64,000 bases of DNA, from the NCBI RefSeq assembly GCF_003336755.1, contig NZ_QMDI01000006.1, forward strand, positions 310,001 to 374,000. Reading direction: 5' to 3'. Under the pieces are notes generated by a model. That model saw nothing but the letters and a program-made list of their open reading frames with translations. It was not told the DNA's origin and made no database searches. Source of the DNA: Elioraea thermophila (ex Habib et al. 2022). GTDB taxonomy: Bacteria; Pseudomonadota; Alphaproteobacteria; Acetobacterales; Acetobacteraceae. Of this stretch, positions 4,270-20,519 are shown piece after piece (position 1 is the first letter of the stretch; each line of letters opens with the position of its first letter). The position numbers were made by a program, and so were the translations under genes.

Positions 4270-4380
4270 AGCCGGGCGCCGCTGCGGCGGCGGTGACGCA
4301 GGGCGCACTCGGGCGATGCGGGAGGAACGCGTGGGAGAGAGGGGGAACATGCTGCCGTCCGTGTCGAAGGGAGGCAGGCG

Positions 4381-16822: not shown

Positions 16823-19300
16823 TCAGGCCGCCTTCTGGCTTGCTTCGTTGGTGCCGAAGTCGATCGGGCAGGCGCCGCCGTCGCAGGCGACGTGCTCGAT
16901 GCCGACCGCCTCGGGGGCCGAGGCGGCGGCGATCGCGGCGGCGATCATCTCGTACTGCGCCTTGGTCACCGGCTCTTCCGGCTGGTACTCGTAGGCGGTG
17001 GTGTCGGCCTGCGGCATCACGGAGCAGGCGCGCACGGTGGGCTGCAGGGCGAGCACCGCCGCCCGGAACGCCTCGAACGACACCTGCTTCGGGTCGTATT
17101 TCAGCGTGTAGGAGACTTGGTTGCCGGTGTCGGGCTCGAGCGGGCGTCCCTGTTCGTCAACGCCGCGGATCCAGTATTTCTCGAGCAGCTGCAGGTAACG
17201 GTACTGCTCCTCGGGTGTGGCTTCGCCGGCGGTGACGATCTTGTCGGTGAGGCCGAGCTCGTCGGCGAGACGCACGATCTCCGGCTTGGTGGGAAAGCCG
17301 ACCACGGTCGTGCCGCGATAGGTGACGAGCTTCTTCACCGGATAACCCTTGGCGCGGTATTCGCGCACCAGAGGGTCGTCGTTGCGGAACTGCACCCAGC
17401 GCAGGTACTCGCGCATCGACGGCAGGTGCGCGCCTTCAGTGAGGCCGAACAGCTTGCTCGTGGTGCCGGCTGGCTTGATGGTGGTGTCGGTGTGCGGCAC
17501 GGTCATGCCGAGGGCGGTGGCGTAGCGCCGGGCCTCGTCGCGCACCGCGCGCTTGAAGCGCGCGAGCAGCATCCAGAACGGCTTCGACTTCTCCTCGTCG
17601 ATCAGGTCGCGGAAGCCGAAGCCGAAGCGCTTCAGCGCCCACTCATGCAGGCCGGTGATGCCGACCCCGATGCGGTTGGTGCGCTCGGTTTCCGGCCGAT
17701 ACAGGCAGTCCATGCGGTTGACGCGAATCAGCGCGCGCGCGCAGGCGCGGAAGGCCGCCTCGGCGTCGTCGTCGTCGGCCGCGTGGTAGGGCACCACGTC
17801 GCCGATGACGCAATAGCCCCCGAGCATGAACAGGCTGATCTCGCCGCAAGGGTTGGTGATCTGCGTGTAGCGCGAGGCGCGGGCGCGACGCACGAGGTCG
17901 GCGAGCAGGGGGTGGGACTCGGCATCGGGCTGATACTTCGCGCTGCCGACGAAGAGCTTGCCGGCCTCGTAGGCCTCGAGGCCTGCGTCGTTGGCGACGA
18001 GCTTGTCCTGGTTGATGAAGCCCGGTTCTCCGGTCCGGTCCTCGTAGGCGGCGCGCACGGCGGCCTCGAACACGGCGTGCGCGTGTTCCCAGTCCGCTTT
18101 CGTCGCCGCATCCCAAGCGGGGTCGGGTTCGGGCCGGCGCACGTGGTTCCAGAACTCGGCATCCACCGTGATCGAGTTGTTCGAGGACCACAGGAAGCCG
18201 CCGCGCTTGACCGAAATGAAGCCGAGCACGGAACGATCCCGCCAGGTCTTGGTGCTCATCCGAGCCGACCGCCGCGCGCCCCCCACCAGCACGCACTCGG
18301 CGAGGTAGTGGTCGACGAACAGCGCGGCGCGCCAAGGCTCCATGCCCGACCCGCGCACCATGGCCACACGCGCCAGCGCCTGCATGAAGGGGCCGGGCCC
18401 CGAGGCGGGGCGTCCCTGCATGCCCATGATCGGCGCGCCCTTGGGACGGACGCGCGAGAAGTCGATCAGCACGACGTCGTCGCGCCGGCCTTCGAAGGCG
18501 AGGCGTTCGATCACCTCCACCGCCTTCGCCCAGCCCTCGCGCGAATCCGCCACCTCATGCACGAGGATGCGCCCGTGCGCGGCGTAGAGGTGTTCGGCAT
18601 CGCGGCGGGTGAGGAAGCCGCCGATCAGGCCCGACTGCACGTCCGGATGGCTCCAGTCGATCACGGGCACCACGATCGGCATGTCGCGTGCCCAATCGAC
18701 GGCCATCATCGCGTCGTCGTAGGCGCGGCCCACCCCGGAGCCGTTGAGCAGCAACAGGTAGAGCAGGAAGGAGGTCGCCGCCGTCGAGCAGTTGGTGAAG
18801 ACCTCCATGTTGCGCGACGGCTGCGAAGCATCGCCGTGCTGCAGGTGCCGCCCCGACAGCAGCACGCTCGCCTGGCGCAGGTGGTGGCGCAGCGTGGTGC
18901 GCTCGGCCTCGCGCCACTCCGGCCTCGGTTCGAGCAGGGCATTGCCGAGGGCGACGCGTTCGGCGACGTCCGCCCAGGACTCGGTCTCGATCCGCCCCAC
19001 CGCCTCGATCCAGCCATAGACGCGCGTCTCGTCGCCGTGATCGACGTGGAAGACGCCCTCGTAGGCCCAGCCCTCGCGTCGCGCCCAGGCGGCGAGCTGC
19101 TGCTCGAGGGCGGTCGAATCGTCGCGCGGCAGGTCGAAGGGAACGCGGCGCGGGGCGGCGAAGCGGCGCACGATGCAGCGGTTGATGGTGCGATCCGCCA
19201 CCGCTTGGCCCATGCCCGGCGCGTAGGTGCGCGCAGGCGTCTCGCCCCATGGCAGCAGAGGCTGGGCATTCGAGACGGGAGGGATCGGCATCACGGTCAT
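16823..19300 (-). CDS. nrdJ: Adenosylcobalamin-dependent ribonucleoside-triphosphate reductase (class II, monomeric type)
   Basis: An 825-residue class II reductase that makes deoxyribonucleotides without oxygen, using B12 to generate a thiyl radical. It follows the Lactobacillus leichmannii RTPR rather than the long dimeric NrdJ: SNNSITVDAEFW, EPGFINQDKL, NPCGEISL with the thiyl Cys and Glu two residues on, a second Cys 12 residues later (GGYCV), TTIKPAGTTSKL, and the C-terminal redox pair in CDGGACPID. An upstream Cys in EVFTNCST matches the other half of the active-site disulfide. About 90 residues longer than the Lactobacillus enzyme, mostly at the N-terminus. The region upstream holds two NrdR-like boxes. 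Ribosome site GAGG lies upstream of the ATG. Confidence 0.9.
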   Translation of the reverse strand: MTVMPIPPVSNAQPLLPWGETPARTYAPGMGQAVADRTINRCIVRRFAAPRRVPFDLPRDDSTALEQQLAAWARREGWAYEGVFHVDHGDETRVYGWIEAVGRIETESWADVAERVALGNALLEPRPEWREAERTTLRHHLRQASVLLSGRHLQHGDASQPSRNMEVFTNCSTAATSFLLYLLLLNGSGVGRAYDDAMMAVDWARDMPIVVPVIDWSHPDVQSGLIGGFLTRRDAEHLYAAHGRILVHEVADSREGWAKAVEVIERLAFEGRRDDVVLIDFSRVRPKGAPIMGMQGRPASGPGPFMQALARVAMVRGSGMEPWRAALFVDHYLAECVLVGGARRSARMSTKTWRDRSVLGFISVKRGGFLWSSNNSITVDAEFWNHVRRPEPDPAWDAATKADWEHAHAVFEAAVRAAYEDRTGEPGFINQDKLVANDAGLEAYEAGKLFVGSAKYQPDAESHPLLADLVRRARASRYTQITNPCGEISLFMLGGYCVIGDVVPYHAADDDDAEAAFRACARALIRVNRMDCLYRPETERTNRIGVGITGLHEWALKRFGFGFRDLIDEEKSKPFWMLLARFKRAVRDEARRYATALGMTVPHTDTTIKPAGTTSKLFGLTEGAHLPSMREYLRWVQFRNDDPLVREYRAKGYPVKKLVTYRGTTVVGFPTKPEIVRLADELGLTDKIVTAGEATPEEQYRYLQLLEKYWIRGVDEQGRPLEPDTGNQVSYTLKYDPKQVSFEAFRAAVLALQPTVRACSVMPQADTTAYEYQPEEPVTKAQYEMIAAAIAAASAPEAVGIEHVACDGGACPIDFGTNEASQKAA

Positions 19301-19371
19301 CGGACTGCCTCGGCGGCTCGGGTCACAGCCGGGAACGATAGCAGGGCAGCCGCGTCATCCGCCAGAGGGTC

Positions 19372-19387
19372 GCTCTGCATCTTGGGG
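19372..19387. promoter_or_regulatory. NrdR-like box 1
   Basis: GCTCTGCATCTTGGGG keeps many positions of the 16-base NrdR consensus acaCwATATvTwGtgt. On its own it is weak, but its centre lies 31 bp from the centre of box 2, the spacing (15-base linker) seen for paired NrdR boxes in many bacteria. Confidence 0.45.
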
Positions 19388-19402
19388 TTTGGTGTGGCAG
19401 GG

Positions 19403-19418
19403 CCACCACATGTGGTGG
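19403..19418. promoter_or_regulatory. NrdR-like box 2 (perfect palindrome)
   Basis: CCACCACATGTGGTGG is a perfect 16-base palindrome in the intergenic region between nrdJ and the divergent hydrolase gene. It matches the core CAC...AT.T..GTG of NrdR boxes. NrdR is an ATP-cone repressor of ribonucleotide reductase genes; the location about 105 bases before the nrdJ start is suitable. An operator for another regulator of either divergent gene cannot be excluded. Confidence 0.55.
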
Positions 19419-19499: not shown

Positions 19500-20519
19500 A
19501 TGAGCGACGCCGCACTTGCCGAACCGACCGTGCTGGCCGAGGTCGCGAACGGGGTGGGGCGCCTCGTGCTCAACCGGCCGAAGGCGTTGAACGCGCTCGA
19601 CCTCGACATGATCCGGCTGCTGACCGAGGCGCTGGAGGCTTGGCGCGAGGATCCTGCCGTGCGCCTCGTCACCATCGAGGGCGCGGGCGGGCGCGCGTTC
19701 TGCGCCGGTGGCGACGTGCGCGCGATCCGCGCCTTCGTGCTCGCGGGCGAGCTCGATGCGGCGGAGGCCTTCTTCGCCTCGGAATATCGCCTGAATCGGA
19801 TGATCGCCGAGTATCCGAAGCCCTATGTCGCGCTGATCGACGGCATTTCGATGGGTGGCGGCATGGGGCTCTCCATCCACGGCTCGCATCGGGTGGTGAC
19901 GGAGCATGCGGTGATGGCGATGCCGGAGACGGCGATCGCGCTCTTCCCGGACATCGGTGCCTCCTATTTCCTGCCGCGCCTGCCGGGGCGGCTCGGGCTC
20001 TATCTCGCGCTCACCGGGGCGCGCATCTCGCCGGGCGATGCGATCTACGCCCGGCTCGCCACGCACCACGTGCCGCGCGCCGCCCTCGAATCGCTGAAAG
20101 CCGGGCTCGCCCGCTCCGGCCTCGCGGCCCTCGAGGCGCACGCGCACCGCCCACCCGAGTCGCTGCTTGCCCAGGCGCGCGCGGCGATCGACGACTGTTT
20201 CGCGCCCGACACCGTACCGGAGATCCTCGCCCGGCTCGAGGCGCGCGGCGATGCTTGGGCGAAGGCGCAGCTCGACACACTCGCGCGCATGTCGCCGACC
20301 AGCCTGTGCGTGACGGCGGAACTGTTGCGCCGTGGCGCGACCATGTCGCTCGCCGACTGTCTCGCGATGGAACTGAGGCTCACCCGCAAGGTGATCGTGC
20401 ATCCCGATTTCGCCGAAGGCGTGCGCGCGCAGGTGGTGGACAAGACGCGCGACCCGAAATGGCGCCCAGCCACGGTGGCGGAGGTCGATCCCGCCGCCAT
20501 CCTCGCCATGTTCGACTGA
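19500..20519 (+). CDS. 3-hydroxyisobutyryl-CoA hydrolase (enoyl-CoA hydratase/isomerase superfamily)
   Basis: A 339-residue crotonase-fold protein. Start ATG 19500 is preceded by GGGGAGAGA. Motifs are the oxyanion-hole segments FCAGGDVRAI (about residues 67-76) and SMGGGMGLSIHG (about 117-128), the catalytic MPETAIALFPDIGASYFL (about 140-157) where Glu and Asp match the HIBCH subgroup, and a C-terminal extension typical for hydrolases rather than hydratases. Role: hydrolysis of 3-hydroxyisobutyryl-CoA in valine breakdown. No other valine pathway genes are in view. Confidence 0.85.
   Translation: MSDAALAEPTVLAEVANGVGRLVLNRPKALNALDLDMIRLLTEALEAWREDPAVRLVTIEGAGGRAFCAGGDVRAIRAFVLAGELDAAEAFFASEYRLNRMIAEYPKPYVALIDGISMGGGMGLSIHGSHRVVTEHAVMAMPETAIALFPDIGASYFLPRLPGRLGLYLALTGARISPGDAIYARLATHHVPRAALESLKAGLARSGLAALEAHAHRPPESLLAQARAAIDDCFAPDTVPEILARLEARGDAWAKAQLDTLARMSPTSLCVTAELLRRGATMSLADCLAMELRLTRKVIVHPDFAEGVRAQVVDKTRDPKWRPATVAEVDPAAILAMFD

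Follow-up and report, generated by a model that had tools for sequence, protein, structure and literature searches.

The 64-kb window, by which we mean the whole stretch of Elioraea thermophila DNA analysed here, contains a class II ribonucleotide reductase (RNR) gene, nrdJ, and a divergently transcribed gene of the 3-hydroxyisobutyryl-CoA hydrolase family, with two 16-bp boxes resembling NrdR-binding sites in the gap that they share. The features of the locus are as follows:

16823..19300, minus strand: nrdJ, adenosylcobalamin-dependent class II ribonucleotide reductase, RTPR-like, 825 aa
19335..19340, minus strand: possible -10 element of the nrdJ promoter, TATCGT, suggested by a recurring TAnnnT hexamer
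19372..19387, no strand assigned: NrdR-like box proximal to nrdJ, the weaker of the two, GCTCTGCATCTTGGGG (CCCCAAGATGCAGAGC on the nrdJ strand)
19388..19402, no strand assigned: 15-bp spacer between the boxes, unconserved (mean pairwise identity 0.41)
19403..19418, no strand assigned: NrdR-like box distal to nrdJ, perfect palindrome CCACCACATGTGGTGG
19500..20519, plus strand: divergent 3-hydroxyisobutyryl-CoA hydrolase family gene (NF004127, 431 bits against 274)

The boxes lie 31 bp apart, start to start, and the pair begins 118 bp before the ATG of nrdJ with the palindrome as the distal box on the nrdJ strand. An earlier note on this DNA had placed a phased pair with a perfect palindrome at 19372-19418, and its coordinates and sequences are correct; its tallies of about ten and eleven consensus matches were each one too high, as GCTCTGCATCTTGGGG agrees with the NrdR box consensus ACACWATATATWGTGT at 9/16 positions and CCACCACATGTGGTGG at 10/16. 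Both boxes retain C4 and G13, 9 bp apart (each present in 98% of the nrdA-box training set described below), which we take to be the GC pairs termed highly conserved in the available text of PMC9110341. The 15-bp spacer falls within the accepted range of 14-17 bp; as far as the accessible parts of PMC12051234 describe, NrdR binds best to boxes with spacers of 14-17 or 24-27 bp, corresponding to integral helical turns. A TAnnnT hexamer recurs ∼21-31 bp past the proximal box in all nine Elioraea nrdJ loci, in an alignment judged by eye, and suggests the promoter position and the putative -10 element at 19335..19340; a sigma-70 consensus scan found no promoter. A cobalamin riboswitch before nrdJ was considered and rejected, no Rfam family reaching its cut-off anywhere in the window.

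A weight matrix was built from the nrdA box pairs of 12 genomes outside Elioraea belonging to family f1, a genome grouping that unites Elioraea with other genera (NCBI assigns Elioraea to Elioraeaceae, Acetobacterales), so that neither nrdJ nor the genus Elioraea contributed to its training. Of the 14 nrdA loci in f1 genomes outside Elioraea, the 12 at which 0/100 shuffles scored as well supplied the training pairs; the remaining two, L059 and L061, were excluded. Using this out-of-genus matrix, the nrdJ pair is the top-scoring pair of the window at 23.9 bits, the runner-up at 31 or 32 bp reaching 7.0 bits and the best pair at the remaining spacings, from 17 to 60 bp, 15.4 bits. Among 63,985 window positions scored for single boxes, the palindrome comes first (16.6 bits) and the proximal box tenth (7.3 bits). 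When the 300 bp upstream of nrdJ were Markov-resampled, none of 1000 sequences reached the observed pair score. In the 100-shuffle test used to select the training pairs, 17 of all 25 nrdA loci had 0/100 shuffles as good; the fraction as good was 0.04 and 0.02 at the Elioraea nrdA loci L052 and L053, and 0.74 at L069, the nrdA locus of G048, a genome in which nrdR was not found.

At genome scale, a core pattern with 31-bp spacing has two matches in the 3.03-Mb E. thermophila genome, one before nrdA and one before nrdJ, and its backward control has none; the pattern omits box position 6, which is absent from the E. thermophila proximal box, as was known when the pattern was chosen. With 32-bp spacing there are five matches in this genome, none of them at nrdA or nrdJ, and in other genomes of the genus the 31-bp pattern has from 0 to 5 matches each, some away from RNR genes. 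A sequence model of the 12 non-Elioraea nrdA pairs, which scored 150 of 162 candidates in the E. thermophila genome, likewise yielded just the nrdA and nrdJ sites at E≤10, with modest E-values of 0.12 and 0.15. This model missed the nrdJ pairs of G001 and G002, which the pattern search recovered, and the genome-wide model search is therefore incomplete.

Conservation within the genus follows the boxes rather than the surrounding DNA. In all nine Elioraea nrdJ loci (that of E. thermophila, L007-L012, L047 and L048) the box pair is the best upstream match; seven loci have the boxes spaced by 31 bp and the other two by 32 bp. Among the seven loci with 31-bp spacing, mean pairwise identity is 0.86 in the distal box and 0.78 in the proximal box, against 0.41 in the spacer, 0.46 in the next 16 bp and 0.35 in the preceding 8 bp. 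The weakest cases are two near relatives of E. thermophila: L008 (pair 13.1 bits, proximal box 7.4 bits, 0.075 of shuffles as good) and L007 (proximal box 4.6 bits, 0.010 of shuffles as good). The proximal boxes of the six loci other than L007, L008 and E. thermophila score 10-17 bits. The nrdJ gene itself is 88-96% identical in six further Elioraea genomes, and all named contigs with genes 82-96% identical are from Elioraea. In L008, a locus from a metagenome-derived genome, the nrdJ start at position 1501 reads ATA instead of ATG, suggesting either that translation starts further downstream or that the assembly is wrong here.

Pairs in helical phase also lie upstream of all eight RTPR genes from other f1 genera, with 0/500 shuffles as good in each case and best spacings of 31 bp (one gene), 32 bp (four), 33 bp (two) and 42 bp (one). 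Since such pairs precede both the Elioraea and the family RTPR genes, two separate RTPR lineages carry NrdR-like operators. In the 42-bp case (L026, 1211-1268) the spacer is 26 bp and the distance between the boxes four helical turns, which matches the second spacing optimum given in the available parts of PMC12051234.

The E. thermophila genome encodes a cognate regulator, an NrdR that scores 177.7 bits against TIGR00244 (cut-off 124.65) and whose Zn-ribbon and ATP-cone domains are all above cut-off. Its gene sits between glyA and ribD, both named from their translations. The protein keeps Cys3/6/31/34, Asp15, Arg17, Arg26-29 and Arg37, residues to which the accessible text of PMC9110341 and PMC12176259 assigns zinc binding or DNA contact, and has Gln at position 12 where Streptomyces NrdR has Arg12. 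Autoregulation of nrdR was rejected, as the 8 kb around the gene are without a box pair (best score 0.7 bits). The genome also encodes a class I reductase, with nrdB (374 aa) coming after nrdA (639 aa), and nrdA is preceded by its own box pair at 31 bp, scoring 27.1 bits with the out-of-genus matrix. NrdR thus probably controls both nrdJ and nrdA, to judge from the paired boxes. A candidate third RNR at C6:55986 was dropped, its PF02867 score (22.5 bits) being below cut-off and its surroundings being unrelated open frames. At L038, TTGTCCACA (4372-4380) lies beside the nrdA box pair and resembles a DnaA box; a DnaA box near E. coli nrdAB is known.

The main proposal of the earlier note, an NrdR-like pair ahead of nrdJ, therefore stands: neither of the two outcomes that the note named as refuting it occurred, since the genome has nrdR and the pair recurs upstream of nrdJ in the relatives. 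The pair also outscores every other in the window, and in this genome the 31-bp core pattern matches before nrdJ and nrdA only. What fails is the view of nrdJ as "the" regulated reductase of this organism; because nrdA carries its own pair, nrdJ is one of two.

A single NrdR-like box, CCACATCATCTGGTxx, is also conserved at an Elioraea HNH endonuclease gene in all five aligned loci (in gene orientation at about 1478-1524 in L097 and L098 and about 1395-1420 in L099-L101), and in just two genomes, G002 and G006, a second box at 31 bp completes the pair. The conserved box adjoins a conserved TGTGCATAA, which we take to resemble a DnaA box.

Given the boxes, their spacing and conservation, a cognate NrdR with its contact residues and the near-uniqueness of the pair in the genome, we have high confidence in reading the pair as an NrdR operator controlling nrdJ. 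Chance resemblance is scarcely credible: the consensus is degenerate, and matches of 9/16 and 10/16 are modest taken alone, but the pair is present in nine of nine Elioraea loci, and the matrix rank, the shuffles, the genome pattern scan and the conservation of boxes over spacer all speak against coincidence. The palindrome could instead serve the hydrolase gene, which starts 82 bp beyond it across a gap that would permit such an arrangement, as the operator of another regulator, for example one of acyl-CoA or branched-chain amino acid breakdown. We consider this very improbable, because in L045 and L046 the hydrolase gene lies ∼1 kb off, behind another open frame, while the pair still adjoins nrdJ; the motif was moreover derived from sites ahead of nrdA in other genera, and two-box phasing is retained in 9/9 loci. 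As the boxes stay with nrdJ in L045 and L046, the hydrolase gene is an unlikely target.

Two further alternatives accept NrdR as the regulator and are unlikely rather than negligible. NrdR bound at the pair might control both divergent genes, whose start codons in E. thermophila both lie within ∼130 bp of the boxes; against this, the hydrolase gene is not the immediate neighbour in L045 and L046 and is without a known link to dNTP synthesis, and the hexamer resembling a -10 element lies towards nrdJ, although some side effect on the hydrolase gene is possible. It is about as doubtful that the palindrome works alone beside a decaying proximal box, NrdR binding being weak or of a single-box style. 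The low proximal scores of E. thermophila, L007 and L008 (7.3, 4.6 and 7.4 bits, compared with 10-17 in the other six) would fit such decay, and topA has been reported as a single-box target in Pseudomonas (PMC4409342, in its available parts); yet identity among loci remains 78% in the proximal box, compared with 41% in the spacer, and C4 and G13 of this box are intact.

For the preferred reading, in which NrdR acts on nrdJ through both boxes, the mechanism can be framed on the pattern of the Streptomyces and E. coli systems, which have been solved. According to the accessible text of PMC9110341, PMC12176259 and PMC12051234, NrdR loaded with ATP is unable to bind DNA, and with dATP plus ATP it forms a tetramer on two boxes approximately three helical turns apart, with sharp bends in the DNA. 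On this model we infer that the Elioraea NrdR binds the nrdJ pair and represses the gene. With dATP and ATP bound, it would assemble into a tetramer whose two zinc-ribbon pairs grip the two boxes three turns apart and bend the DNA, and the bound protein would block RNA polymerase at a promoter located at the proximal box or a little downstream. With the TAnnnT hexamer ∼21-31 bp past that box, the tetramer would cover or adjoin the -35 region. A drop in dATP would leave NrdR loaded with ATP and cause its release, allowing nrdJ to be made. NrdR would probably act in the same way on the equivalent nrdA pair, so that one dATP sensor would serve both reductases.

A close parallel is the nrdRJ/nrdAB system of Streptomyces coelicolor (PMC9110341, as far as its available text describes), which like Elioraea combines one NrdR with class I and class II reductases and paired boxes approximately three turns apart. 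Most DNA-contact residues of the S. coelicolor NrdR are retained in Elioraea, whose nrdR differs in standing beside glyA and ribD, apart from nrdJ and without a pair of its own, and whose NrdJ belongs with the RTPR-like enzymes, not with NrdJ_Z. Among proteobacteria, Pseudomonas aeruginosa also has NrdR boxes before class I and class II reductases; its NrdR targets named in the accessible parts of PMC4409342 are nrdAB, nrdJ, nrdDG and topA, whereas the 31-bp pattern in E. thermophila matches nrdA and nrdJ only. The 186 predicted proteobacterial NrdR regulons of PMC5343134 are described there as short and conserved, comprising RNR genes, with NrdR never autoregulated, and the Elioraea nrdR likewise seems not to be autoregulated. 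The available portions of that study make no mention of Elioraea or of an RTPR gene.

The reductase behind this probable operator has unusual relatives. NrdJ scores 225.1 bits against the RTPR equivalog TIGR02505, under its cut-off of 340.05, for which reason we call it RTPR-like; it is above cut-off for PF21995 (36.4 against 27) and PF02867 (29.4 against 23.9) and its alignment with the RTPR structure 1l1l takes in the NPCGEISL motif and the C-terminal CxGGACPI. By the wider definition it is a B12-dependent class II RNR, with the barrel, a B12-type insertion domain and the cysteine motifs. In blastp comparisons Elioraea NrdJ is 52-60% identical to most viral RTPRs (60% to a viral contig, 57% to Rhizobium phages), 44% to the viral contig lineage L169/L170 and 29% to actinobacterial phages; the eight family relatives, at 43-47%, fall below most viral RTPRs. 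In a tree of 25 RTPR rows (L008, L011, L165 and L170 omitted), the eight family sequences form a fully supported group of their own on a long branch, and Elioraea lies in an open fork with viral sequences. The alternative of a single RTPR clade of Elioraea and its family relatives apart from the viruses was rejected (AU p 0.022, for a group named after the tree was seen). That NrdJ is a widespread bacterial RTPR was likewise rejected, as the E. thermophila genome alone matched at E≤1e-50 among 385 class and 398 phylum genomes, two samples that overlap and contain few family members. The identities and the tree favour an exchange of nrdJ between Elioraea and viruses, but the tree, whose deeper branching order is open, favours no donor or direction of transfer.

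An NrdR-like pair also lies directly upstream of the RTPR gene in all three Rhizobium phage records, at the following positions:

L163 (P11VFA), 1449-1497: NrdR-like pair
L164 (RHph_I4), 1417-1465: NrdR-like pair
L165 (vB_RleS_L338C), 1189-1237: NrdR-like pair

These pairs have a 17-bp spacer (33 bp start to start), end ∼15 bp before the start codon and score 24.0 and 30.7 bits, with 0/1000 shuffles as good. In RHph_I4 the scan covered 100,000 bases out of 108,441, and this pair was the best there, the next independent pair scoring 17.5. P11VFA and L338C share the same pair, so that the records represent at most two independent-looking sequences. The RTPRs of RHph_I4 and P11VFA are 57% identical to NrdJ over 96-98% of the query. 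The L338C RTPR is annotated as several consecutive frames (L165, 1253-3666), so the gene is interrupted or the record contains sequencing errors. No NrdR-like pair was present at the other eight viral RTPR genes tested (L166-L169, L171-L174).

Possibly these pairs are a host repressor site used by the phages; because the boxes form an inverted repeat, a phage operator or a hairpin is possible instead. If the former is true, the phage RTPR would be switched on only once infection drains the host dATP pool, and the phage would be reusing a host repressor as a gauge of its own DNA synthesis. The pairs thus raise the question of whether phages time their reductase via host NrdR boxes; a literature search for NrdR boxes in phage promoters gave a sole match, concerning Salmonella reductases. 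Bringing the two systems together, we tentatively propose, with a little less than even confidence, that Elioraea nrdJ derives from a virus-associated RTPR lineage captured by the host NrdR circuit and that Rhizobium phages of the RHph_I4/P11VFA/L338C group bear a host NrdR operator before their RTPR.

The nrdJ pair is very probably a genuine NrdR operator, one more example of an already known mechanism, and the reductase behind it is unusual in being virus-like. A literature search combining Elioraea with ribonucleotide reductase found no paper, and a specific, testable pair of NrdR targets, nrdJ and nrdA, is now proposed for the genus. The ATP-cone of NrdR is the sole ATP-cone match in the genome, NrdA and NrdJ being without one, and any ATP-cone dATP shut-off must therefore act on transcription. 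Such a transcription-level shut-off makes loss of NrdR in Elioraea unusually informative for dNTP pools.
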